Origin: Sulfurimonas sp. CG01_land_8_20_14_3_00_36_23
Lineage (GTDB): Bacteria; Campylobacterota; Campylobacteria; Campylobacterales; Sulfurimonadaceae
Reading direction: 5' to 3'
Length of the DNA stretch: 49,829 nt
NCBI GenBank assembly: GCA_002781365.1
Contig: PETN01000023.1
Location: forward strand, 1-49,829
The position numbers and the translations under genes are program-made. The notes beneath the pieces were generated by a model that was given only the letters and a program-made list of their open reading frames with translations, was not told where the DNA came from and searched no databases. Positions 11,931 to 25,109 of this stretch are shown here, piece by piece (position 1 is the stretch's first letter; the number at the start of each line of letters is the position of its first letter).

Positions 11931-13772
11931 CTAAAACTGTCTAGCTATCTTCTTAACCTCTACAATAATCTCTTTTTGTCTATTGTAGACATACTCCATC
12001 AAAATGGATTCATTCACATCATCTTTAAGAAGTTCACATACGATTTTGCAAATTCCATCCTTGCAAGTACTAAGGATAACTTTGGCTTCTACAGAAATCT
12101 TTACACTTCCTTCAAGACTGTTTCTATTTGGCAAAACAAAGGAGAGCATGACAGTATCTGCTCTTATATGATCTACCAGTTTGGCATATTTTAGTTGTAC
12201 AGCAATCGAACTAATGGATATATCTAAAATTTCACCGCTTAATGTAGCACCAAATTGAGAGATAATGATGGGAGTTCTTGCAGAGCAAGAGACTCTGCTA
12301 TATTTTCTCGCATTTGCATTTCCATTTACAAAAGAAAAACCTTCAACAAGTGCTATCTTCTTTTCCAAATTTATAAATTTAACTTTCGCTTTGATATCTT
12401 GACTGAAACTTGAGGATTGTAAAACTGTCTCCTTTTCAAGCTTCATCACAATACCTTGAAAATGCTCAAATTTGATGTATACGCCATCTTCGTTATATTT
12501 AACAATAGTAGCCGATGTATTAATACAAAGGCCTTTATAGATGTTTAAAAGCTTAATTTGGATGCTATTTGTATATACTTCCCGTAAAAGGTGTTTAATA
12601 GACTCTTGCTCATCCATTTTGTCATGTGCATTTCCAATATAGATGAGTTTATCCTTAGCAATATCTTTTTGGGTAATACTCTTGTTGGATATTTTCCCAA
12701 GTGTGCTTAAAATATCATTTAAATCTAAAGTAGTTGTATCAAAAGCATAGATATCAATAAAAGGATTAAACTGCTGTTCACTCAAAAATCCAGAAATTTT
12801 ATGTTGAAAATTGTCCGCTTTACTCTTTAAGAGTTCTAATGTAATATCTTCAAAAATTACAATATAAAAATCACTGTCATACTGTGCAAGAATGATTTTT
12901 TTATCTACAATTTTATCTACTTCAAATAAAAAATCTTTAAGAAAGCCTTCTACTTCAACCTTACTCCAATCATTTTGAAGACTCTTAAGATTCTCAATTT
13001 GAATCGTCATAAACGAAATCTTCTTGCTTGAGATGCTTTGTTCAATAAATTTTTCTTTCACAACTTCTATAAAGCTGATTCTGTTTGAGACAAAACTGAG
13101 CTCATCTTCGGACGAGACATGCTCTTTTAAAAGCTCAAGAAAAATAAATTTCTCCTCTACCTTTTCTGTTGTGCTACTTCTTATATCAAAGTATGCATTG
13201 CTGTTTTCATGAAGGGTGAGCTGTTGCTGCGTGACTGTATCCTGAGAAAGCAGCTCATGAAGAGGAAGTTGTTTACAAATGTTTTTCTCAACTTGGGATA
13301 AATCTTTCCATCCGAATGTATCAAAGAGTTTTTGGCTAGCATAGGTGAGTTCGTTATTTTTAAAAAAAATAAAACTCTCTGTTTTCAGGACAATCTGACC
13401 TAACATATTGTGAAGATGCTCTTCTTGATTGAGTTTATAATCACTTCTCAACTTTAGAATAAGCCTATTAACATCTTGATTTGCTGTTATAATTGTCTTT
13501 GCTTTTAATAAAAAAGCCAATTGAAAGAGTGTGAGGCTGTATTCATTTGGAACAATAAAATAGATTAAAGAATCTATTTTATCTTCAAATAACTTTTTGA
13601 ATTTTTCTGATATATCTTTATCAACTTTATAAACCTCTACGATATATACCCCATAGCTAGCCAATGTCTCTATGGTACTTATATCAATAGACACACTCCC
13701 CTCAAAGGAGTTCAAGATACTCTTTGCTTGAGGGGAATCTGTTGTTTTACAGTATAAATGGCAGATATTCAT
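11931..13772 (-). CDS. PAS / degenerate GGDEF / PilZ signalling protein
   Basis: 613 residues. The N-terminal 100 residues form an unrecognised alpha/beta domain. A PAS-like domain follows at about 110-200, then a GGDEF-fold domain at about 210-370 in which the active GGDEF loop is replaced by AQYDSDFYIVIF, so cyclase activity is unlikely. The C-terminal third is PilZ-like: R489-K-Y-S-R493 matches the c-di-GMP-binding RxxxR, while the second motif, expected DxSxxG, reads DISISS from Asp517 with Ser in place of Gly. It probably reads a second messenger rather than making it. There is no membrane segment. It is the last gene of the leftward block, 73 bases after ppnP, so it may have its own promoter. 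Confidence 0.7.
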   Translation of the reverse strand: MNICHLYCKTTDSPQAKSILNSFEGSVSIDISTIETLASYGVYIVEVYKVDKDISEKFKKLFEDKIDSLIYFIVPNEYSLTLFQLAFLLKAKTIITANQDVNRLILKLRSDYKLNQEEHLHNMLGQIVLKTESFIFFKNNELTYASQKLFDTFGWKDLSQVEKNICKQLPLHELLSQDTVTQQQLTLHENSNAYFDIRSSTTEKVEEKFIFLELLKEHVSSEDELSFVSNRISFIEVVKEKFIEQSISSKKISFMTIQIENLKSLQNDWSKVEVEGFLKDFLFEVDKIVDKKIILAQYDSDFYIVIFEDITLELLKSKADNFQHKISGFLSEQQFNPFIDIYAFDTTTLDLNDILSTLGKISNKSITQKDIAKDKLIYIGNAHDKMDEQESIKHLLREVYTNSIQIKLLNIYKGLCINTSATIVKYNEDGVYIKFEHFQGIVMKLEKETVLQSSSFSQDIKAKVKFINLEKKIALVEGFSFVNGNANARKYSRVSCSARTPIIISQFGATLSGEILDISISSIAVQLKYAKLVDHIRADTVMLSFVLPNRNSLEGSVKISVEAKVILSTCKDGICKIVCELLKDDVNESILMEYVYNRQKEIIVEVKKIARQF

Positions 13773-13845
13773 TTTTGCTACCCGAGTTTATAATCCATAT
13801 AGAAATTATAATTTTTTTTGTGTACTTAGCTATTATATTAATTTT

Positions 13846-14160
13846 TTACTTAATATATGAACAGCAGTAATCGGTAACACTTAGAACATTGATATCAAAA
13901 GCGCTATTTGCTTCCACCTCAAATGAGCATGGACCACTCATAGAAACGAAGCTATCGCTCCCTGGGAGTTTCAGTTCAAAACTGCCTGAATATATCTCCA
14001 TAATCTCTTTATCAGCTGTATTGAAAGTATAGTTACCCTCTAGCATAATCCCTAAAGATTTTATGGAGCCATCTTCAAACTCAACTGTGCGACTCGTCAC
14101 TTTTCCAGAGTAGTAAATATTAGCTTCTTTTACTACACTTACATTTTTAAACTTTGACAT
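13846..14160 (-). CDS. ppnP: Pyrimidine/purine nucleoside phosphorylase PpnP
   Basis: A 104-residue single-domain cupin of the former UPF0345/DUF1255 family, which phosphorolyses several nucleosides to base and ribose-1-phosphate. Recognised from the overall pattern: [20 protein letters not shown], then [13 protein letters not shown] and [12 protein letters not shown]. The start lies inside the 3' end of the histidine kinase gene (14-base overlap), so it is translationally coupled to it, an odd pairing for a nucleoside-salvage enzyme. A role in ligand sensing or in salvage under control of the kinase cannot be read from sequence. Confidence 0.88.
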
Positions 14161-16198
14161 TACTTACCTTTTTGATTGAAAATATTGATTCGGTTCCAAG
14201 TCCGGAACCTTCGCTCTTAAGTATAACATCTCCACCCAAAATTTTTGCCATTTTTTTACTAAGAGAGAGTCCTAAGCCTGTACCCTTATGTGTTTTTTGC
14301 ATAACATTTTCAACCTGTGTAAAGTCAGTAAACAATCTGTCCAAATCTTCACTCGATATACCGATACCATTATCTTTTATACTTACATAAAGTGTTTTAT
14401 CATCTTCATAAAGCTCTACGACTATGTTTCCCTCTTTTGTAAATTTTATAGAGTTAGATAAGAGATTTAGGACAATCTGCTGAAACATCTTAGGGTCTGT
14501 ATCATAAATAGTATTTTCAATTTTATCATGGTTGAAGAGTAAATTTAAATCTTTTTCAGATGCGAGTGGGGAGAGCATGTTGCAGCTAGCTTGAACAATA
14601 CGCAATATATCAACACTCTGAATTTGAGCTTCCATTTTTCCGGCTTCAATCTTGGCAATATCTAAAATTTCATTTATCATTTCAAGTAGATATTGTGCTG
14701 AAGATTCAATGTTTCCGACTGTTTCTATCTGATCGTCTGTCAACTCTTCATAAGTAATCAAAAATTGAGCAAATCCGATAATAGCATTCAGAGGTGTACG
14801 GAGTTCATGTGACATACTCGATATAAAAGCTGATTTAGCATCTGAAACAGAGAGAGTACGCTTTATCAAGCGAATCTTATCGAGTTGAAGCGTAATCATA
14901 GAAGCGATAGCATTATAAAAATCTCGCTCTTTCTTGTCTTCGAATTTTTCGATGCCTAAAGCTATAGAACCAAAGTAGACTTTTTCATTTTTCTCAAAGT
15001 CACTCACATAAAGTTTTATCAACTCTCTATCAATTGCCCAGCTATTTTCTTCAATAAAATACAAATCTTTGTTACTTGTTAAAGTTGAAATCTCCTCTAT
15101 AGAAACTTTCACACACTCCTCTTCACTTTTCGTTTGGATAATAGTGTTAAACACTTTGATAAGCTGTGTAAAACGTTCTAATCTCAGCCTGTTTTCATTT
15201 TCAAGCTTGATAAGTGAGACGGAAGTTGTCTTAATCATTTTGTTAAAAGATTGTGTTAGGATTGAAATTTCATCTTTTGAAGTTGTTTCCAACTGTATGG
15301 AGTAATTTTTTGTGTTAACAATCTCATCAGCAACTGCGGTTAACTCCTCAATTGGCTTTACTATACCTCTAGCATAATAGAAAGAAGCATAAATGATGAA
15401 CGCAAAAATAAGAACTGACACATAAAGCATGAAACGGATAAAGTCATACAGATAGGCTAATGCATAACTCTTATCTACCGCGTATACGATGTACCAGTCA
15501 TGCATAGGGGCAGCAATTCTTTTATAAACTATGACCTCAGAAGAGCCAAGAATGCCCTCTTCATCTTTATCAATATAAAGATTTAAAGAGAGATGTTCGC
15601 CTATGATAAGACCATTTTTATGATTGAGCATATAGGCATGTATATTGTTATCATGCGTAAGATAGATGTCTAAGTTTTCTAGGTTAAATTCCAAAACTAT
15701 GTATCCAAGCTCTTTTTTCTTGTCAAAAGAAGCGTATATTTTTGAATAGGTATAAAAGGTTTTTGCTTCTATATAATCCCCACTATTCTCAGTTAATTTA
15801 TTAAGATTAAACTCTTTATGTATACTCTCTTTGTCTGAAGATGAAGTTATCATTGCCTGCATATTTACTGTCATCAATTTGATTTGCTGACCCATATCGT
15901 TTGCTTTTTGATTTAAAAGCCTTGAGATCCTTTTATCAATATCATCCACTAGCATATCATCCATTAAATCAAGTGAACTTAAAAAAGAGACCTCTTTAGA
16001 TAGAGAAGTTAAATGGTTATTGAGAAACTTTGATACACTCTTTGTTCTATCTAACTGCTCACCTATAATATTGTTAACTATCTTTGCTTCACTTAAAAAG
16101 ATTGCATAAATCAAGAGTGTCAAAAATGGAAGGAAGCCAATTCCTATAAAGACCACAAGGAGTTTGTTTCGTAAAGATTTTCTTACAAAATCAAACAT
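14147..16198 (-). CDS. Membrane sensor histidine kinase
   Basis: 683 residues. Membrane segments lie at about 13-35 and 254-276 and enclose a periplasmic Cache-like sensor of roughly 215 residues. A HAMP region follows (279-332), then a GAF-like region (345-445), a HisKA domain with phospho-acceptor His464 in [11 protein letters not shown], and a HATPase domain with N (LLSNSIKF), G1 (DNGIGIS) and G2 (GTGLGLSLS) boxes. All catalytic motifs are intact. It follows its likely partner receiver by 12 bases and overlaps ppnP. The upstream periplasmic binding protein and barrel suggest that it senses a periplasmic ligand or redox state (inference). Confidence 0.93.
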
Positions 16199-16210
16199 TG
16201 CTTTGCATTC

Positions 16211-16588
16211 TCACTCATGAGAGTGATTTTTTAATGCATTTTTCACCCTCGCTCCAAAATCTATGATGTTAAATGGTTTTGCTAGGTACTCATCCGCACC
16301 ACACGCTAAAGCTTTAGAGATAGAGTTGGTATCTGAAAGAGCGGAGAGAACAATAAGAGGAATATCTGACAATTTTTCATCATCTTTTATAATTTTAGTT
16401 GCTTCATAACCATCCATAACGGGCATCATCAAATCCATTAAAATCACATCTATCTTTGTGCTTTGTAAAACATCAATCGCCTCTTGTCCATTTTTGGCTT
16501 CAACAACAGAAAATCCCTCTTTATTTAGTATCTTTGATGCCAACTTTCTATTCATGAGTTCATCATCACAAACAAGTACTATCTTCAC
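16211..16588 (-). CDS. Single-domain CheY-like response regulator
   Basis: 125 residues, only a receiver domain. The acidic pair is DD at 8-9, the phospho-acceptor is Asp52 in ILMDLMMPVMDG, and the conserved Lys is in LAKPFN. With no output domain it must act by protein contact (motor, kinase or another receiver) or as a phosphorelay sink. It starts one base after the stop of the periplasmic protein gene and lies 12 bases before the kinase gene, so it is very likely the kinase's partner. Confidence 0.92.
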   Translation of the reverse strand: MKIVLVCDDELMNRKLASKILNKEGFSVVEAKNGQEAIDVLQSTKIDVILMDLMMPVMDGYEATKIIKDDEKLSDIPLIVLSALSDTNSISKALACGADEYLAKPFNIIDFGARVKNALKNHSHE

Positions 16589-17002
16589 TTATTCACTCCA
16601 CTTATAGATAACTTTTAAATCATCATCAAAATTCTTTGCATCTATATATCCAATTGCACCGTCAACATTTTTCACAAAAGCTTTGATACTCTCTTGTGAC
16701 TTCATGCTCACTGGTGGTCTATGCCCCATATAGTGCTCTTTCGTCCAGTATATTTTCAATCTCTGAAAACTTAAATGCAGTACCTCTTGCTCAAACTTTA
16801 GCCTCAAAGGGTCTCTTGCATCGAGGTTGATAGGAACTACCTCTATGTCATTTACAAATGTCAATTTCTTTAAGAAGATAGCTTTAACTTGGCTTATTGA
16901 TAAGTCTTCCATATTTTTATTGCAAATAACAACATAATCATCAGCAAGGGTAAAAGATGAAAAAAACAGACCTATTACAAATATTCCAGCTAATCTTTTC
17001 AT
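16589..17002 (-). CDS. Phosphate-ABC-binding-like periplasmic protein
   Basis: 137 residues with a signal peptide (MKRLAGIFVIGLFFSSFTLA, cleavage after about residue 20). The mature part resembles the PstS-like (PBP-like) fold: DLSISQVKAIFLKK, then GHRPPVSMKSQESIKAFVKN and GAIGYI. It is much shorter than PstS and there are no transporter genes nearby, so it is more likely a sensing accessory for the adjacent kinase than a transport component. The first base of its start codon overlaps the stop of the barrel gene. Confidence 0.75.
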   Translation of the reverse strand: MKRLAGIFVIGLFFSSFTLADDYVVICNKNMEDLSISQVKAIFLKKLTFVNDIEVVPINLDARDPLRLKFEQEVLHLSFQRLKIYWTKEHYMGHRPPVSMKSQESIKAFVKNVDGAIGYIDAKNFDDDLKVIYKWSE

Positions 17003-17991
17003 TAAAAAATCACCGAAAGAGAGAACATTAACTTATCTTGTAAATCATGTGAATTAAGTTCATATTCAGACTTAATCGCAATTGGGAATAGCGGTCTATA
17101 TGTATATGTAAAAACTGCTAATTGCCCTACATCAGCACTAAGCCTGTCATCATAGGATTCAACCCTTATACTTCCTATATGTTGCTCCGTAAATCTATAC
17201 AAGCCTTGTACATACCCGGCCAATGAAGTTATTTCCCTTTGTCCTTGTTGGTATCCTAGTTCTGTAGAGAATTGAAATTTATCACTATCATATTTTCCAG
17301 ATAAAAGCGCATAATGAAGAAACTCTGTATCATCGAAAGCATTTGTTTGATGGAAGTATCCACCATCTAGCTTTAGAGTGTAGTCATCTTTCTCATAGAC
17401 AACATTAAGTCCGTAGTGCTGATCTAGCTTATAGTTATTATAGTTATCATCAAAATCATCATTATTTTGATAAATTACTCCTATTTTCAGGCCATAGTCA
17501 CTATAGGTTGAATAAGAGACTACTGCACCAGTTGTATAGTTTGGAAATATAATATCCGAAGTCATTGGATTGAAGATTGTTTGTCGTAATGCATTTACAG
17601 GTAAAAGATTCCAAAGGCCGATAGGGGAGTTGTATTTCCCTAGTGTTACAGCGAAATTTTCATTGTATATATAGTCAAAATATAATCTTTCCACATGCAG
17701 GTCTCTATCTTTTGTAATAGAGTAGCTATTAGGATATTGACTGTGTGTATAGAAATCTTTATATTCCACTTCTGCCATGTAGGATAACTTCTCAAAGGTA
17801 CCATAAGCAAGAAGCGCTATATCATTGAGTCTATAAGTTGTAACTGCTTTAGATTGTGCATAATCTGCAGAGAAATAACCTCCGACATAGAGTGGTAGGG
17901 ATGCAACTTGCACACCCTTCCCAAGTTCATACTCATCCTCTGCTTGTAAAATAAAAAAACAAAGAAATAAAATAGTAATAATCTTATTCAT
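17002..17991 (-). CDS. Outer-membrane beta-barrel (porin-like) protein
   Basis: 329 residues from the ATG at 17,991, chosen because AAAGGGAG lies just upstream and a signal peptide begins there (MNKIITILFLCFFILQA). A longer frame from 18,012 would bury the signal peptide. The mature protein alternates short amphipathic strands rich in Tyr and Asp (for example LYVGGYFSADYAQ, YLDFYTHS-like strands) and ends in a terminal Phe (MFSLSVIF), the usual outer-membrane assembly signal. It resembles small phosphate/organic porin-type barrels, but the substrate is unknown. It sits 31 bases after dsbD and overlaps the periplasmic protein gene. Confidence 0.75.
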   Translation of the reverse strand: MNKIITILFLCFFILQAEDEYELGKGVQVASLPLYVGGYFSADYAQSKAVTTYRLNDIALLAYGTFEKLSYMAEVEYKDFYTHSQYPNSYSITKDRDLHVERLYFDYIYNENFAVTLGKYNSPIGLWNLLPVNALRQTIFNPMTSDIIFPNYTTGAVVSYSTYSDYGLKIGVIYQNNDDFDDNYNNYKLDQHYGLNVVYEKDDYTLKLDGGYFHQTNAFDDTEFLHYALLSGKYDSDKFQFSTELGYQQGQREITSLAGYVQGLYRFTEQHIGSIRVESYDDRLSADVGQLAVFTYTYRPLFPIAIKSEYELNSHDLQDKLMFSLSVIF

Positions 17992-18022
17992 TAGAACTCC
18001 CTTTACTCTCACCCCTAAGACC

Positions 18023-19783
18023 TTAAATACTATTTATATGGTCTAAAAACTCTTGAGGTGGCTTATAACCAAATATCTTTTTAGCTTTTATCTCTTCTAA
18101 ATTTTCATCGAAAAAGAGAATTGCAGGTGGTCCAAATACTCCATATTTTTTAGATAACGCTTTCTCATCTGCACTATTTTTCGTAACATCTGCTTGAATC
18201 AGAACAAAAGAACTTAATGCATTTTGAACATCTGCATTAGAGAAAGTATTGTGTTCTAACTCTTTACAAGAGGTACACCAGTCAGCATAAAAATCTAGCA
18301 TTATCTTTTTGCCTTTATTTTTTGCCAAAACTGCATCTAACTCAGCAATAGAGTGCACTTTTGTGAAACTATTTGTTTTCACGCTTACAGAGCTAGTTGA
18401 AACAACACCTGCTGATGTAAATTTTTCTAATGGATTGAGTGGATTAGTTGCTCCACTTAATAAACCAAGCAACAAAGATGCACCTAGCATAAAGATAACT
18501 ACACCCAAGCCTTTAAACAGCGCGTTCCATGATCTTTTATCATCTTTCAGTGCTTCAAACACTCCAAGATAAACAGATGAGATGATTAATAGTAAAGCCC
18601 ATAAAAGCATTGAAATCGAATCTGGTAATATACGAGCCAACATCCAAATAGCAATAGCAAGCATGATAACACCAAATACTTTAGAAACAGTTGTCATCCA
18701 ACCACCAGGACGAGGCATAAATTTACCTGCTCCAATTCCCACAAGAAGAAGTGGTGCCCCCATACCTAAACTCATAACAAAGAGTGCCAATCCACCCAGC
18801 ATAGCATCACCTGTTTGACCTATATAAACAAGCGCTCCTGCCAACGGTGGAGCAACACATGGCCCAACGATTAATGCAGATAAAAACCCCATAACTGCTA
18901 CGCCTGCAAAACCACCTTTATTTCCAGCTTTGTTAGAAGTATTAGATAGTTTACTCTGTAAAGAAGAAGGAAGTCCAATTTCAAAAAATCCAAACATTGA
19001 GATAGCCAAGATAACAAAGATAGCTGCAAAAGCAGACAATACCCATGGATTTTGTAAAGATGCCTGAATGTTACCACCAAAGAGTCCAGCTAAAACACCA
19101 GCCATTGTATACGCCATACTCATTGCTAGCACATAAACAAGAGAGAGCATAAAACCTTTTCTTGCCGTCATCCCTTCACCTTGAGAAACGATGATAGATG
19201 AGAGAATAGGAATCATTGGAAAAACACATGGAGTAAGTGCTAAAAGAAGTCCAAATCCAAAAAATGTTAACAAGATAAGAGAGATGTTACCACTTTTAAA
19301 TGTATCCGTGATTGCATCTGTTTCAGAACCTGAGTTCGTAGTTTCATTTGCTACTACAGCAGATGCTTGTTCTAATTTTGATGCATCTATTTTAAGTGTA
19401 AACTCATTTTCTAAAGGTTCATAACATAAACCTTTCTCTGAACAACCTTGATACTTAACAACTGCAACTATCTCATCTGCATCACTGTTTTTTGTCAAAG
19501 GCATATCTAGCACTATCGACTTAGTAAACACTTGTTCGCCGCCATGATCTACACTTGCGGGATAGTTTATAGCACCTAAAACAATAGCACTATCTTTAAG
19601 TGAAATACTCAACTTATCTTTGTATAGATAGATAGATTCAGCCAACTCAATCTTCACTATTAGTTTGTTCTCTTTTACTTCTGCACTAGGTTTAAATGCA
19701 TCTTCTGGCATTAAAAAACTACCTGAGCCACCCAAGCCAAATAACGAAAAGTACATCGCTACTAAAATTAAAATATATCTCAT
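18023..19783 (-). CDS. dsbD: Thiol:disulfide interchange protein DsbD
   Basis: 586 residues with all three parts of full-length DsbD. An N-terminal signal and periplasmic alpha domain contain the Cys pair in QGCSEKGLCYEP. Eight membrane segments follow, with Cys in LTPCVFPMIP and VGPCVAPPLAG. The C-terminal thioredoxin domain has C503-T-S-C506. It passes electrons from cytoplasmic thioredoxin to periplasmic thiols. In this operon, with a TlpA-like protein, two c-type cytochromes and a lipoprotein ending in GGCGCR, its likely job is to keep the cysteines of these partners reduced (inference). Confidence 0.95.
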   Translation of the reverse strand: MRYILILVAMYFSLFGLGGSGSFLMPEDAFKPSAEVKENKLIVKIELAESIYLYKDKLSISLKDSAIVLGAINYPASVDHGGEQVFTKSIVLDMPLTKNSDADEIVAVVKYQGCSEKGLCYEPLENEFTLKIDASKLEQASAVVANETTNSGSETDAITDTFKSGNISLILLTFFGFGLLLALTPCVFPMIPILSSIIVSQGEGMTARKGFMLSLVYVLAMSMAYTMAGVLAGLFGGNIQASLQNPWVLSAFAAIFVILAISMFGFFEIGLPSSLQSKLSNTSNKAGNKGGFAGVAVMGFLSALIVGPCVAPPLAGALVYIGQTGDAMLGGLALFVMSLGMGAPLLLVGIGAGKFMPRPGGWMTTVSKVFGVIMLAIAIWMLARILPDSISMLLWALLLIISSVYLGVFEALKDDKRSWNALFKGLGVVIFMLGASLLLGLLSGATNPLNPLEKFTSAGVVSTSSVSVKTNSFTKVHSIAELDAVLAKNKGKKIMLDFYADWCTSCKELEHNTFSNADVQNALSSFVLIQADVTKNSADEKALSKKYGVFGPPAILFFDENLEEIKAKKIFGYKPPQEFLDHINSI

Positions 19784-19803
19784 TTTTTTACCTTTATTAT
19801 AAT

Positions 19804-20724
19804 TTACAAATTATTTAAATTAATAGAGTCTAGTTTTAAATCTCTACAATTGTTAAACGATATGTTGGAGCCTTTATCAATCGAAATCGTTGAAAAATTC
19901 AATCTTTTCGAAAAAGAACTCACATAAGCCAAATCTTTGTTAAACATAGCAGTGGCAAAGGCATCTAACATATCTATGTTAAATCCATTTTGGATTACTG
20001 TCATAGAACTATAGATATTGGATGACTCACCACTCTTTTTATTTAATATATGGTTATTCTCTTTTGTTTTTATAAATCTCTCATAATCACCACTTGTCGA
20101 GATTGAAATTGGCTCTTTAGATGTTTTGATATATCCTAAATTCCCTTCCGAGAATGGATCCCTTAAAGCTATAGTATAACTTTTTCCAAAACTTACTATT
20201 TCTCCACCAACATTAACCAAACTCTTTGTCGCACCATTTTGCTTCAAAAAAGATACTATTTTTTTAGCAACATAACCTTTGCCAATGCCACCTAGATCTA
20301 ATCGCATACCTTTTTTTGCTAAAAAGATACTATTTTCAGAGAGCTCAATGAACCTATAATCCACAAGCTCTTTTTGCTTGTCAATCATTTTTTTAGTCGC
20401 GACTTCCTGGTTTGAAAATCCAAAATGGTATGCTCCATGACTAAGAGCTCCCATGGTAATATCAAACTCTCCATCGCTTAATCTAGAGGCTTCTATACAT
20501 CTTTGAAAAAGTGCAATATCTTCATCGTTGCACTCTCTCTTTTCTAAACCCGAAGAAGCATTTATCTGACTTAGAAAAGACTCTTTTTTATACGCGCTGT
20601 ATCTATCTTCAAACTCTTTCGCCAAGCCGTAAGCTTGAAGCAAAACACTCTTTGAAACATTGGCACGAATGAGCAACTTCGTGCTCATAATATTTGCTTC
20701 TAATGCCTTTTCAAAAAGTGCCAC
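19804..20724 (-). CDS. apbE: FAD:protein FMN transferase (ApbE), no signal peptide
   Basis: Transfers FMN from FAD onto a Thr or Ser of target proteins. Family motifs are present: FDITMGAL, MRLDLGGIGKGYVAKK, VNVGGEI and DMLDAFATAM with the metal-binding Asp. The start is GTG at 20,724 with AAGG six bases upstream. The protein begins MALFEKALEANIMSTKLLI, so it has no signal peptide or lipobox, unlike most ApbE proteins, and should be cytoplasmic unless the start is wrong. It sits 8 bases after the DUF3570 gene, whose product carries a target-like motif. Confidence 0.9.
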   Translation of the reverse strand: MALFEKALEANIMSTKLLIRANVSKSVLLQAYGLAKEFEDRYSAYKKESFLSQINASSGLEKRECNDEDIALFQRCIEASRLSDGEFDITMGALSHGAYHFGFSNQEVATKKMIDKQKELVDYRFIELSENSIFLAKKGMRLDLGGIGKGYVAKKIVSFLKQNGATKSLVNVGGEIVSFGKSYTIALRDPFSEGNLGYIKTSKEPISISTSGDYERFIKTKENNHILNKKSGESSNIYSSMTVIQNGFNIDMLDAFATAMFNKDLAYVSSFSKRLNFSTISIDKGSNISFNNCRDLKLDSINLNNL

Positions 20725-20732
20725 TCTACGCC

Positions 20733-21854
20733 TTAAAATTCATAATCAACTTTTAAAGTTGTATATATCGCCTGTATATTACTGTCCCCATGCCAACTCT
20801 TAATATTAGCATTGTTGCTCGTTTGATATAAATCCACACTTGCCGTAAATTTATATTGACTCGTTGGCGACGGTTTATAGATAAATGGAATACCTAAATC
20901 ATAAGAGTCAAATGCGCTCGTACGATAATCGATAGCGAAATATGGATCAGTTGCGCTATAAGTTCCAAGCTCTTTTGAAAAATTTGCTTTACTTTGAGTA
21001 TAGTATCTCACTCTTATTCCTGAGGTTAGCTTAGAGTTAAATTCATGCATCCACTCTACATTAAGAGTATGAGATGATATATCCCAATCATCTGTGTAAT
21101 ATCTGTACGCATAGTTAATGCTATTTTCATCACTTAAAAGATTTACACCCTTCACAGCAAAAGCATCCCCTGACCTTGTGCTTGGGTACTTTTCAAACTT
21201 AGCAAAACCATCTTGTAAAACATAGTGATACGTTGATGATAGAAAACCTTCACTCCAGAGTTTTGAGTAAACAAATTGTATCGATGCGGTCGGGCTAATC
21301 AATTGATTGACTGAAATATCGATTTTTCCCTCTTTTCTACTATTGTTGGGCACTAAAACTCTATGTGTTACTGGACTCCATGTGTCATCTGACTGTGAAA
21401 TACCAATACCAACCGCAGTATTTTCCTCATTGAGTTGTCTCACATAGTTTAGAAAGATTGCTTTACCATCATAGTCATTTTCAGTTGAAAGATAAAATCC
21501 ACCACTTACCGCATTTTCTCCATCTTCATAAGCCATCAAAAATGTAGGAGCATATCTCATCTCATCAAAACCCTCTTTAGCAGAAGCACCAACAACTGTA
21601 TCCGCTATAACAGGGCTACCACCGTTTGTAATACTGGCAGCAGTAATAGCATCTATTCTCATTGAAAAACCAACTAAAAGATTTTTAGAGAGTGTTTTCA
21701 TAAGTGAAAATGTTGGCGAATAAACCGTAACGTCACTCGAGTCACTATAAGTATTAATACCTACAGAAGCACTATCTTTAAGACTCGAAGCATACGTTTT
21801 TAAAAATGGTGTTAGTAGCAAAATACCAACAAAAAATGATTTTATTACCTGCAT
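20733..21854 (-). CDS. DUF3570 outer-membrane protein with ApbE-target-like motif
   Basis: 373 residues from the ATG at 21,854, chosen because AAGGAGG lies six bases upstream; an alternative TTG is two codons earlier. A signal peptide ends near Tyr-Ala-Ser at about residue 22. The rest looks like an outer-membrane barrel (alternating aromatic strands, terminal VDYEF). Recognised as DUF3570. Near the N-terminus, D68-A-I-T-A-A-S74-I-T resembles the ApbE consensus Dx(x)(S/T)(G/A)A(T/S)xT, so Ser74 could carry covalent FMN. The ribosome site and start lie inside the end of the DUF4266 gene (10-base overlap), and apbE follows 8 bases later. Function of the family is uncharacterised to my knowledge. 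Confidence 0.82.
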   Translation of the reverse strand: MQVIKSFFVGILLLTPFLKTYASSLKDSASVGINTYSDSSDVTVYSPTFSLMKTLSKNLLVGFSMRIDAITAASITNGGSPVIADTVVGASAKEGFDEMRYAPTFLMAYEDGENAVSGGFYLSTENDYDGKAIFLNYVRQLNEENTAVGIGISQSDDTWSPVTHRVLVPNNSRKEGKIDISVNQLISPTASIQFVYSKLWSEGFLSSTYHYVLQDGFAKFEKYPSTRSGDAFAVKGVNLLSDENSINYAYRYYTDDWDISSHTLNVEWMHEFNSKLTSGIRVRYYTQSKANFSKELGTYSATDPYFAIDYRTSAFDSYDLGIPFIYKPSPTSQYKFTASVDLYQTSNNANIKSWHGDSNIQAIYTTLKVDYEF

Positions 21855-22060
21855 CCACAACCTCCTTGAAAGCTACTATCTCCGCCAGCTGAAGCTTCAC
21901 GAATTAAAAAAATGTGTCCCTCTTGTTCTGCACGTGCATCCACTGGACTTAGTCTCATTTTATCTTGAGCAAAATACTCTTTTTCGTAAGGCATAACACG
22001 CACCAAACGCTCAGAACATCCACTCAATAATAAAAGAGCAATTAAAACTAAATATTGCAT
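21845..22060 (-). CDS. DUF4266 small lipoprotein ending GGCGCR
   Basis: 71 residues. The lipobox LLSGCS makes Cys15 the lipidated residue. The middle matches DUF4266 (VMPYEKEYFAQDKM), and the C-terminus ends in QGGCGCR, the family's characteristic Gly/Cys tail. The CxC pair could bind a metal or form a redox-active thiol site at the outer membrane. The codons of this tail also supply the Shine-Dalgarno AAGGAGG for the DUF3570 gene, so the two products are tightly coupled. It starts 8 bases after the TlpA-like gene. Confidence 0.85.
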   Translation of the reverse strand: MQYLVLIALLLLSGCSERLVRVMPYEKEYFAQDKMRLSPVDARAEQEGHIFLIREASAGGDSSFQGGCGCR

Positions 22061-22068
22061 ATCTCAAC

Positions 22069-22563
22069 CTACTTTAATTTATTGATTTCTTGTTTTAGCT
22101 CTTCAATCTCTTTATTATTCAAACTTCCTACGATAACAAGTTTAATAACACCATTTTTATCAATCAAATACGATGATGGCATCGCAACTGCTCTATAAGC
22201 TTTTGGCAATTTTTTTGAAACATCGTGAAGAGAAATAAAAGGTGTTGCAAAGCCCACTTCACCCTCAACACTATTTAAAAACTTTTTAGCATCTGCTGGG
22301 TCTTTATCAATACTTACAGCAACGATTTTAAATCCGCTCTTATACTCTTTTTGAAGTTTAAAAAACTCTGGCATCTCTTCTTTACAACCGCTGCACCAAC
22401 TAGCCCAAAGATTAAGAAGAACTACTTCACCCTTAAAATCACTCATAGAGTAATTTTTTGAATTATCCAGCGTAGGAAGATTAAAAGCAACAGCTTTATC
22501 CCCCTCTGAAACACCTGCGAACAAACTTAACGCTAACGAGATTAATACTATTATTTTTTTCAT
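22069..22563 (-). CDS. TlpA/ResA-like periplasmic thioredoxin
   Basis: 164 residues with a signal peptide (MKKIIVLISLALSLFAGVSE). The redox site is WC57-S-G-C60 in LLNLWASWCSGCKEEMPEF, with the later cis-Pro region AMPSSYLID. Proteins of this family reduce disulfides of apocytochromes and other periplasmic partners and take electrons from DsbD or CcdA; dsbD is in the same operon. It lies between the cytochrome genes and DUF4266, so likely clients are the haem-binding CxxCH motifs and the DUF4266 cysteines. Confidence 0.92.
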   Translation of the reverse strand: MKKIIVLISLALSLFAGVSEGDKAVAFNLPTLDNSKNYSMSDFKGEVVLLNLWASWCSGCKEEMPEFFKLQKEYKSGFKIVAVSIDKDPADAKKFLNSVEGEVGFATPFISLHDVSKKLPKAYRAVAMPSSYLIDKNGVIKLVIVGSLNNKEIEELKQEINKLK

Positions 22564-22572
22564 GTTTTTTTC

Positions 22573-23172
22573 CTATTTACAATAACTTATTTGACCAGCA
22601 CTAATATACAAACGAGAAGTTGTTATACCATGGCATGTGTTACAAGCGATTTGATTCGTAGCATCCGCTGAATTTGTTATATCATAACTTGCCCCACTAA
22701 ATTTATGCACCGCTGTTGACTGAGCTAGATTGATACCTGAGACTCTATCTACGACTCTCATAAGATAATCTCCAGTTGGAGGAGTTGAGTTAGCAACTCT
22801 AGCAAGTCCAAAGATATTTCCCTGTCCCTTATAACCTTTCGAGTTTGCATCATAGGAGTCAGCGGTTGAATAAGCAACACTAAAATCTGTATTGCGTACA
22901 AACTGAAGTGCCAAATCAGCATTACAGCTATCAGTTAACTCTTGTGAGTTGTTAAAATCTGTAGCAGTTGCGTTTTTAAACAGAGTTCCCGCTAAAACAA
23001 GCTTTCTATCTGTTGCTAAGTCCACATTATGACAAGCTAAACAATCTCTACCTTGAAAGTGCCAGCCGCTAGTTGTAGCAGCTGTAGCACTTCCTCCCTC
23101 TTCTCCCTCTTCACTACATCCACTCAAAAGAAAAGATGTAGCTAACAGAAAGAGCAATGTGTAATATTTCAT
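22573..23172 (-). CDS. Dihaem c-type cytochrome lipoprotein
   Basis: 199 residues. The lipobox LLSGCS makes Cys19 the lipid anchor. Two haem motifs are present, C44-L-A-C-H48 and C177-N-T-C-H181. Two further Cys (83 and 198) could form a disulfide. An acidic Gly/Glu linker follows the anchor. The N-terminal part around the first haem resembles the first haem region of the neighbouring tetrahaem protein (a short CxxCH then a segment with L-x-A-G-T-x-F), suggesting common origin. It is expected at the outer or inner membrane, depending on Lol sorting, as an electron carrier. Confidence 0.85.
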   Translation of the reverse strand: MKYYTLLFLLATSFLLSGCSEEGEEGGSATAATTSGWHFQGRDCLACHNVDLATDRKLVLAGTLFKNATATDFNNSQELTDSCNADLALQFVRNTDFSVAYSTADSYDANSKGYKGQGNIFGLARVANSTPPTGDYLMRVVDRVSGINLAQSTAVHKFSGASYDITNSADATNQIACNTCHGITTSRLYISAGQISYCK

Positions 23173-23181
23173 TTAACCTCC

Positions 23182-24369
23182 TTAGTTGTTTTGAGCACCA
23201 AGCTCAATCCATTTCTTAATATCAAGGTAATCTTGACTCGTAGCAGTAAAGACTGTTCCTCCATTATGGGAGATAGTATTGGTTGCTTTTTGTAAAAGAG
23301 CAGAACTTGTTGGCGTTGTTGTATTTACTTGTGCAACTACACTAGTATAATTTCCTACAAGGAATGTTCGTCCACTTGTACTAGAGTGACAAGCATTACA
23401 TTTATTTGTTAATATTGTCGCTACATTACCTGAATAAGTAGAAGTCGTCGGTGCTGTTGCCGTTGTACCTGTTACAGTACCTAGTGCTGCACCACCTGCT
23501 ATCCAAGCTCTAATTGTTGTATATCTTGTTTCAGAAGTAACTAAAATAGTACCGCCACTATGAGAAGTTCCAATTGCTTTTGTTAACAAGAGTGAATTAT
23601 CTGGTGATGTAGTATTAACATCTGCAACTATATTGTTATACGATGCCGTTACATTTCCATCTGAACTATAGAGTACTGTACCTGTTGTTCCACCAGCGTG
23701 GCAAGCAGTAGTGCTACAATTTGCAACAATAATAGGCAATACATCCGCTTGAAAAACTCCTGCAGTTACTGTACTTGTTGTACTCGTACCAGTTCCTGTG
23801 CTTCCTGCTGTTGCTCCAGCAAATGAAGTAATTCTTCCTGGTGCACTGTTTGTTCCAGTTTCTGTATGACAAGAGTTACAATCTAAATGTGTTCTAGTAT
23901 TGTGTGAATTTGTAGCAGAAGCATTTACAACTGTAAAAGTATTATCTACAACCTGACCTGTAAAGTCATAAGCACTAGTCAATGCAGGTGCATCACTACT
24001 CTTAACATAGGAGTTTCCGCTTCCACGTTTAGTTTTGATTCTATACGTAATTTTTTGTCCTGTGCTTAAGAGTGCTTGCAACGAATAGCCACTTGCAGCT
24101 TGATTAGCTGAAGATGTGTTAAGTTGATTAAAAACTGTTCCAGCAGATAAAAGATAATCTTCTCTTCCGTTTGGTCCATGACATACTGAACATGCTACAC
24201 CTTGATTATGAACAGTTATTGAAGATGACGTATTTGTACTATTATAATTGTCATCATAGTTTTCATCATCACTATGACTATCATCACCGCCATCACTACT
24301 CGTGCTTGTTGAACCACATCCTACCAACATAAATGCTAGTAATAAGCTTAATAAGAATTTTTTTCTCAT
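23182..24369 (-). CDS. Tetrahaem c-type cytochrome lipoprotein
   Basis: 395 residues. The lipobox MLVGCG makes Cys18 the lipid anchor, followed by an acidic Asp/Ser linker. Haem motifs are C60-S-V-C-H64, C164-N-S-C-H168, C218-S-T-T-A-C223-H224 (a CX4CH form) and C324-N-A-C-H328. The C-terminal half is a tandem repeat of about 85-100 residues, each unit containing one haem motif followed by a distal segment ending W-I-x-x-G-A, like planctomycete-type cytochrome domains. It is the first gene of the operon after the regulator, with a direct-repeat operator candidate in front. Confidence 0.85.
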   Translation of the reverse strand: MRKKFLLSLLLAFMLVGCGSTSTSSDGGDDSHSDDENYDDNYNSTNTSSSITVHNQGVACSVCHGPNGREDYLLSAGTVFNQLNTSSANQAASGYSLQALLSTGQKITYRIKTKRGSGNSYVKSSDAPALTSAYDFTGQVVDNTFTVVNASATNSHNTRTHLDCNSCHTETGTNSAPGRITSFAGATAGSTGTGTSTTSTVTAGVFQADVLPIIVANCSTTACHAGGTTGTVLYSSDGNVTASYNNIVADVNTTSPDNSLLLTKAIGTSHSGGTILVTSETRYTTIRAWIAGGAALGTVTGTTATAPTTSTYSGNVATILTNKCNACHSSTSGRTFLVGNYTSVVAQVNTTTPTSSALLQKATNTISHNGGTVFTATSQDYLDIKKWIELGAQNN

Positions 24370-24394: not shown

Positions 24395-24432
24395 AGAATA
24401 GTAATATTAGTTTATGAAGATAAAATGAAGAT
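24395..24432 (-). promoter_or_regulatory. Direct-repeat operator and -10 box for the cytochrome operon
   Basis: On the + strand ATGAAGAT occurs at 24,414-24,421 and again at 24,425-24,432, an 11-base period typical of OmpR/PhoB-family sites. On the - strand this reads ATCTTCAT twice, followed by a -10-like TATTCT (24,400-24,395). The repeats would overlap the -35 position, the usual place for an activator. The regulator gene lies immediately upstream. Confidence 0.5.
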
Positions 24433-24440
24433 TTAATAAA

Positions 24441-25109
24441 TCAAGAAGATTTACTAACTCTATAGCCCACGCCCCTAATATTTACAATAAAATCTTTTCT
24501 ATCAAGTTTTTTTCTTAAGTTTTTTATATGAACATCTACAATATTGCTATGCTTTATAGAGTAGTTATCTTTGTTAATATGCTCGCTTAGTTGATAACGT
24601 GTAAGCACCACATTTGGGTTTTGCATAAACAGCTCAAGTAAATCATACTCTGAGCCTGTAAGTTCAACAAGTTTATCATCCACAAAAACTTCATGTGTAG
24701 TTATGTTTAAAGTCACTCCATTAAAACTAATGACGGCCGACTTTTCCTTGCTCTCTCTTCTTAAAAGGGCTCTCATTCGCGCCAAAAGTTCAACATTTGA
24801 GTAGGGCTTGCAAAGATAATCATCCGCACCAGAATCTAAAACGGCTACGCGCGAATCAATCTCTGAGTTTGCAGAAAGCATTAAGACTGGTGTTTTAATC
24901 TCCATTTCCCGAATCTCTTTGAGCAAAACCAGACCATCACCATCACCAAGATTCCAATCAAGAAGTATAAGAGAGTAGTTGTTCTTATCTATATAGTCTT
25001 GTGCTTCCCTATAGCCAGAAGCTACATCGCAGTCATATTTTTCACTCTTTAACATCATAAAGAGTTGTTTTGCCGTTAGTTCGTTATCTTCCACAATCAG
25101 AATATCCAA
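24441..25109 (-). CDS. OmpR-family response regulator
   Basis: 222 residues. The receiver domain has DN at 8-9, phospho-acceptor Asp51 in LLDWNLGDGDG and the Lys of CKPYSN. The C-terminal winged-helix domain includes LVELTGSEYDLLELFM and the late VDVHIKNLRKKL and VRGVGYRV-like end (NIRGVGYRV). No kinase gene is adjacent; the kinase at 14,147-16,198 in the same block could be a partner beside its own CheY-like receiver. It probably controls the cytochrome/DUF3570 operon through the direct repeat 9 bases beyond its stop. Confidence 0.93.
   Translation of the reverse strand: MDILIVEDNELTAKQLFMMLKSEKYDCDVASGYREAQDYIDKNNYSLILLDWNLGDGDGLVLLKEIREMEIKTPVLMLSANSEIDSRVAVLDSGADDYLCKPYSNVELLARMRALLRRESKEKSAVISFNGVTLNITTHEVFVDDKLVELTGSEYDLLELFMQNPNVVLTRYQLSEHINKDNYSIKHSNIVDVHIKNLRKKLDRKDFIVNIRGVGYRVSKSS

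Follow-up and report, generated by a model that had tools for sequence, protein, structure and literature searches.

A DUF3570 redox cassette with a putative two-component control region in Sulfurimonas, at a chromosomal site where relatives encode a nine-haem cytochrome

Gene content of the locus

The window analyzed here is a stretch of 49,829 nucleotides (contig PETN01000023.1) from Sulfurimonas sp. CG01_land_8_20_14_3_00_36_23, a sulfur-oxidizing bacterium with a genome of 2.43 Mb. Its minus strand carries a cluster of redox genes around a DUF3570 outer-membrane barrel, followed by a sensor module, and this cluster was compared with 135 genomes of the same GTDB genus. The first-pass annotation had placed 13 compact leftward genes at 11931-24369. 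All 13 minus-strand open reading frames (ORFs) were present and, apart from the corrections given below, their products were as listed. The tight spacing was also found, with gaps of -16 to 31 bp depending on the choice of start codons and then 73 bp ahead of the last gene. However, the true start of the unit lies one gene earlier, at an OmpR-type regulator gene that had been left outside and is located 71 bp upstream of the first haem gene. A terminator scan, which is weak evidence, detected no minus-strand terminators between the genes of the unit. The features of the unit are as follows.

24441..25109, minus strand: OmpR/PhoB-type response regulator (receiver and Trans_reg_C, by Pfam), predicted regulator of the unit; in 37/135 genus genomes
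24414..24431, minus strand: direct repeat TCTTCAT-TTTA-TCTTCAT resembling an operator, with an 11-bp period, 44 bp ahead of the first redox gene's start codon
23182..24369, minus strand: lipoprotein c-type cytochrome with 3 CXXCH and 1 CX4CH (motifs and lipobox)
22573..23172, minus strand: dihaem lipoprotein cytochrome with 2 CXXCH (motifs and lipobox)
22069..22563, minus strand: secreted TlpA-like thioredoxin with CSGC (Pfam Redoxin/AhpC-TSA)
21845..22060, minus strand: DUF4266 lipoprotein with C-terminus GGCGCR (CXC) (Pfam and lipobox)
20733..21860, minus strand: DUF3570 outer-membrane barrel, putative ApbE substrate, with DAITAAS and DTVVGAS at about residues 70-93 (Pfam, AlphaFold2, PDB fold matches, alignment)
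19804..20724, minus strand: ApbE flavin transferase without signal peptide (Pfam, alignment)
18023..19783, minus strand: DsbD transmembrane thiol-electron transporter (Pfam), the sole full-length DsbD of the genome
17002..18012, minus strand: Porin_O_P-like barrel of the sensor module (Pfam, neighbourhoods)
16589..17002, minus strand: half-PstS, a secreted protein that corresponds to one lobe of PstS-type binding proteins (predicted fold)
16211..16588, minus strand: lone receiver domain (REC), with a REC-HD-GYP orthologue in relatives (Pfam, relatives)
14147..16198, minus strand: sensor histidine kinase with periplasmic N-terminal region, HAMP, HisKA and HATPase (Pfam, tree)

Pfam E-values were 6.6e-41 for DUF3570, 1.5e-13 for DUF4266, 1.3e-53 for ApbE and 1.1e-93 for the DsbD transmembrane domain. 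Redoxin/TlpA-like, Ppnp, HisKA/HATPase/HAMP, receiver and Porin_O_P-like barrel matches supported the other assignments. Lipoboxes were recognized by sequence in both haem proteins and in DUF4266 (LVGC/G, LSGC/S and LSGC/S). The dihaem protein was as annotated, while only three of the four haem sites claimed for the first haem protein are regular CXXCH motifs.

Recurrence and exchange of the redox genes

DUF3570 was detected in 22/135 genomes of the genus. The recurring order was OmpR, haem lipoprotein(s), TlpA, DUF4266, DUF3570, ApbE, (DsbD), porin, half-PstS, REC and kinase, and this repetition of one gene order over many genomes is far more than chance would produce. When neighbourhoods were searched for the set, as suggested with the first-pass annotation, at least 14 Campylobacterota loci had the redox half next to the sensor half. 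So did metagenome-assembled genomes (MAGs) of Aquificota, of which L145 and L147 carried the haem, core and sensor genes. In L041, L045 and the Sulfurovum MAGs L182 and L208, the sensor module adjoined a divergent DUF3570 lineage with 24-28% identity. The half-PstS was encoded in 19/22 genomes with DUF3570 and in 50/113 of the others (p 3e-4; close homologues p 5e-6).

Searched through its half-PstS, the sensor module was found in 69/135 genomes, often without DUF3570. A gene for a nine-haem protein filled the place ahead of the porin in L104-L106, L109, L116-L118 and L121. Its product comprised 567-776 amino acids, with nine CXXCH motifs and a lipobox, and the three proteins tested (L104, L105 and L140) matched the MtrC/MtrF domain II/IV (PF22113) at 1e-11 to 5e-14. 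The window's own site was recognized in L105 and L106, where the order was dnaA, ruvC, ompR, the nine-haem gene, porin, half-PstS, REC, kinase and ppnP, with nrdA and purB beyond ppnP in L105. DNA similarity between the window and L105/L106 covered ompR and the stretch from porin to REC, but not the payload. In a quick kinase tree, the kinase of the window grouped on a starred branch with the kinases of three nine-haem loci; two long branches (L140 and L147) met in this tree and their positions were not used.

The segment between ompR and the porin gene is exchangeable, with the redox genes as the payload in the window. Because relatives carry the nine-haem cytochrome at the chromosomal site of the cassette, the DUF3570 cassette and the nine-haem outer-membrane cytochrome, which are very different machines, are suggested to be functionally equivalent at the cell surface. 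The relatives' lipoprotein at this site, with its domain II/IV matches, is shared with the MtrC/MtrF-type systems, whereas the window encodes no such protein, its genome has no MtrB/PioB barrel and its payload is based on flavin, thiols and small haem proteins. Flavinylated and haem carriers are also known to replace each other in related respiratory enzymes such as fumarate reductases and an alcohol oxidase (Meheust et al., 2021; PMC8238504). In contrast to that modular substitution, a whole outer-membrane cassette rather than a domain is exchanged here, at one site and with one regulator and operator.

Regulator and operator-like repeat

The repeat TCTTCAT-N4-TCTTCAT sits between ompR and the first payload gene and precedes both payload types. 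Direct repeats with an 11-bp period are typical of PhoB/OmpR-type sites. The repeat was usually located 39-49 bp before the first gene, encoding a haem protein, the nine-haem protein, TlpA (in divergent clusters, some with 1 mismatch) or the porin. It was also present in loci where ompR was not adjacent (L059, L061 and L140); the two Aquificota loci showed no copy. The DUF3570 loci, 495 kb together, contained 20 sites with at most 1 mismatch; 14 of them stood 20-100 bp ahead of a haem, TlpA or porin gene, compared with 0.14 expected, and permuted boxes averaged 1.35 sites. The exact box occurred in 32/37 genomes with the regulator and in 18/98 without it (p 3e-13, odds ratio 28), with the reservation that in a subset, not including the window, the first half-site overlaps the last ompR codons (TCT TCA TAA). 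The regulator was encoded in 29/36 genomes with either payload and in 8/99 others (p 7e-16, odds ratio 47). The window contains a regulator with receiver and Trans_reg_C domains together with an operator-like 11-bp direct repeat, and the OmpR-type protein is predicted to bind this box.

The co-occurrence of the two halves and the shared operator before the first redox gene agree with the earlier proposal of one envelope redox unit with built-in sensing. The alternative, that the redox and sensor genes are two functionally unrelated operons adjacent by chance, could draw on the many genomes whose sensor module lacks either payload and on DUF3570 clusters without the sensor in L054, L062 and L065. 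However, the adjacency is repeated even in the divergent DUF3570 lineages, the operator is common to the loci even where ompR is elsewhere, and the genome-level association is strong, which makes a chance neighbourhood very improbable.

When the window's own genome was searched with the box for a regulon, the result was noisy and was set aside, as about half of the 12 exact matches fell in an unrelated dispersed repeat. This intergenic repeat, AATTTTAATCTATCTAAATGAAGA...TGAAGATAAATCTC, contains operator-like half-sites and was found in G000 C49, C51, C52, C67 and C86 (L237-L246). A third possible payload was observed behind the same box and near the same sensor module, encoding a MacB/LolD-like ABC transporter, a COX1-like membrane protein and YceI. 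This operon is located as follows.

L127:12236-17669; L128:11427-16198; L133:10865-15630: third-payload operon

Redox core

The core of the cassette had been proposed as part of an undescribed system, but it is a member of a kind already described. Meheust et al. (2021; PMC8238504) reported 285 flavinylation clusters that contain DsbD; their usual further members are ApbE, DUF3570, a thioredoxin-like protein and a DUF4266 protein with a C-terminal CXC. All of these are shared by the window, where DsbD (PF02683), ApbE (PF02424), DUF3570 (PF12094) and DUF4266 (PF14086) are clustered. The thioredoxin-like component is the TlpA-like protein, with Redoxin, AhpC-TSA and Thioredoxin_8 as best Pfam matches; PF13899, the thioredoxin-like family of Meheust et al., matched only the DsbD C-terminus in the window. 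The C-terminal GGCGC of DUF4266 was conserved in 31/31 aligned sequences. The window differs from the described system by its two haem lipoproteins, porin, half-PstS, kinase, OmpR-type regulator and operator, by degenerate flavin motifs and an ApbE without signal peptide, and by a payload exchangeable with a nine-haem cytochrome. This arrangement of regulator, operator, sensor and exchangeable payload around the core was not found described, and literature searches on Sulfurimonas multihaem genes, on the operator and on DUF3570 after 2021 yielded no relevant report other than PMC8238504.

These components could instead serve envelope thiol redox or repair, that is c-type cytochrome maturation or protein repair, with DsbD, TlpA and DUF4266 keeping exported haem proteins or thiols reduced and the flavin barrel as a side branch. 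DsbD probably has housekeeping duties, because the genome encodes no second full-length DsbD, and the TlpA-like protein resembles the thioredoxins of cytochrome maturation. However, DsbD is missing from many otherwise complete cassettes, and the barrel, ApbE, the operator control and the exchange with the nine-haem gene would be left unexplained. We consider this explanation unlikely.

Sensor module and peripheral genes

The half-PstS has 137 amino acids and no Pfam match, and was modelled as a single PstS lobe at a predicted local distance difference test (pLDDT) score of 90. Its best matches had template modelling (TM) scores of 0.62-0.65 on the query and 0.34-0.38 on the target. The PstS-like fold assigned earlier is therefore right, but for one lobe only, and a PstS phosphate sensor was rejected since the protein is half of the two-lobed PstS. 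Three-component sensing of the AioXSR/ArrXSR type combines a PstS/PhnD-type binding protein with a kinase and a regulator. In the window, too, a periplasmic protein with the PstS fold neighbours a histidine kinase and a regulator, but it has a single lobe and is paired with a porin.

A single binding-protein lobe also bears on the possibility that the locus serves metal or oxyanion assimilation or detoxification, in which Fe(III) or an oxyanion would be reduced at the surface and sensed by the half-PstS/kinase module. The half-PstS suggests an anion-like ligand, and VIT1 iron transporters occur in 25 DUF3570 clusters (Meheust et al., 2021; PMC8238504). However, no iron or anion transporter lies in or beside the unit, and in the single lobe the phosphate-binding loop of PstS is, by our reading, replaced. 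Such a role appears doubtful.

The receiver of the window (16211-16588, minus strand) has lost the HD-GYP domain; most relatives encode REC-HD-GYP, a cyclic di-GMP (c-di-GMP) phosphodiesterase type, e.g., L105:8587-9654. Two further genes follow the kinase and are peripheral.

13846..14160, minus strand: PpnP nucleoside phosphorylase, also behind the kinase in dnaA-locus relatives (Pfam, neighbourhoods)
11931..13772, minus strand: degenerate GGDEF and weak PilZ protein, peripheral, after a 73-bp gap (Pfam)

The family assignment of PpnP was correct, but the gene is peripheral, as it follows the kinase only in relatives with the dnaA locus. The last gene had been labelled PAS/PilZ and counted in the unit. 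No PAS domain was found; its GGDEF signature position reads YDSDF. The gene lies behind the operon only in the window and in none of the compared neighbourhoods, and the gap ahead of it carries its own promoter-like site.

Proposed function of the cassette

In the best explanation, to which we give a probability of about 60%, the locus is an electron-transfer cassette of the outer membrane that is under two-component regulation and replaces a multihaem cytochrome of the cell surface. The sensing module (porin, half-PstS, histidine kinase and receiver) and the OmpR-type regulator would control the cassette through the TCTTCAT-N4-TCTTCAT box upstream of the first haem gene. As payload, the two haem lipoproteins together with the known DsbD-DUF3570 flavinylation core would do the job of the nine-haem MtrC/MtrF-like lipoprotein. 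Electrons may pass from cytosolic thioredoxin to DsbD, then to the TlpA-like protein and to the CXC lipoprotein DUF4266, and from there to the lipid-anchored haems and to flavins carried by the DUF3570 barrel, with a final acceptor on or beyond the outer membrane.

Several observations weigh against this explanation. The nine-haem gene was present in 14 genomes and DUF3570 in 0/14 of these, which is not significant alone (p 0.07-0.13, n=135); mutual exclusion of the payloads was consequently discarded as support and the site exchange relied on instead. Both payloads were encoded in one Helicobacteraceae MAG outside the genus (L140). The MtrB/PioB conduit barrel had 0 matches in the genome, and an MtrCAB-type porin-cytochrome conduit was rejected on this ground. 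The regulator was absent from 7 payload genomes. The flavin motifs of the clade depart from D-x-x-[S/T]-G-A-[S/T], and a signal peptide was absent in all 29 aligned Campylobacterota ApbEs of DUF3570 clusters. In addition, the compared genomes are related and are not independent samples, which qualifies all of the genome-level statistics.

DUF3570 and flavin attachment

An AlphaFold2 model built from 14 sequences showed DUF3570 as a 16-strand barrel with a mean pLDDT of 81, and its PDB fold neighbours were outer-membrane barrels. Even-to-odd turns were of 2-7 residues and the long loops connected odd to even strands. Taking the N-terminus as periplasmic, the loop of 25 residues with the flavin motifs is predicted to be extracellular; the loop itself had a low model confidence (pLDDT 32-49). 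In PMC8238504, covalent FMN attachment, at two motifs, was shown for the DUF3570 of Chlorobium luteolum only. At these motifs, [S/T]GA[S/T], the window has TAAS (DAITAAS) and VGAS (DTVVGAS), and strict motifs occur in the divergent clade. The acceptor serines were kept in nearly all aligned homologues, and the Gly and Ser/Thr positions varied. In a model protein, flavinylation fell to about 50% when this Gly was changed to Ala. The DUF3570 barrel may plausibly carry flavin, although the motifs of its clade are degenerate and its ApbE has no signal peptide. The divergent Campylobacterota DUF3570 proteins (L043, L045, L066 and L068) carry a third motif, SGAS, in the strand 7-8 loop, which is also predicted to be extracellular.

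The 29 ApbEs begin directly at the mature domain, and three that passed a crude hydrophobicity test were over-extended ORFs. An extracytosolic ApbE, as in the DsbD system, is not predicted for the window. Membership in the cluster class of Meheust et al. would still be allowed, with DUF3570 supplying the signal, which was required in just one of four target genes (ApbE, FMN-binding, DUF3570 or DUF2271; PMC8238504). The only other ApbE of the genome, G000:C1:71933-72628 (L253), likewise had no signal peptide, and the genome therefore encodes no predicted periplasmic ApbE. Export signals were clear in DUF3570, TlpA and DUF4266. Because the ApbEs lack signal peptides, the flavin may be attached before export; otherwise, ApbE may be exported in an unrecognized way or have another target. 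Klebsiella is known to have a cytosolic ApbE whose target is also cytosolic. We regard as tentative, and as less probable than the cassette's role itself, the fuller reading that a flavin/thiol/haem cassette and a nine-haem cytochrome are interchangeable at one regulated locus and that DUF3570 is flavinylated by ApbE in the cytoplasm, then exported by Sec and inserted into the outer membrane, where it displays the flavins on extracellular loops.

Outside Campylobacterota, DUF3570 clusters were often beside genes for large dihaem proteins (L153, L159, L160, L186 and L197) of the HZS_alpha/TolB type or PSCyt3 (DUF1588). PSCyt3 was followed by a DUF1501 protein in L153, the sole pair tested, and such dihaem partners were found in 0/21 Bacteroidota DUF3570 loci. 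The pairing of flavin barrel and dihaem protein is recurring outside Campylobacterota.

Implications

Reports of Sulfurimonas strains using solid MnO2 are cited in PMC11748539 and PMC9122950, and no described porin-cytochrome conduit explaining this use was found in the literature. That the cassette and an MtrC-like nine-haem cytochrome replace each other at one site and behind one operator gives a concrete clue to the role of DUF3570, namely surface electron transfer, and the regulator with its operator offers a handle for switching the system on. If the fuller reading is true, the cassette would be a haem-sparing machine for surface electron transfer, with a covalent flavin carried across two membranes. 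If the flavin is truly attached before export, the view of how ApbE modifies outer-membrane proteins would change.

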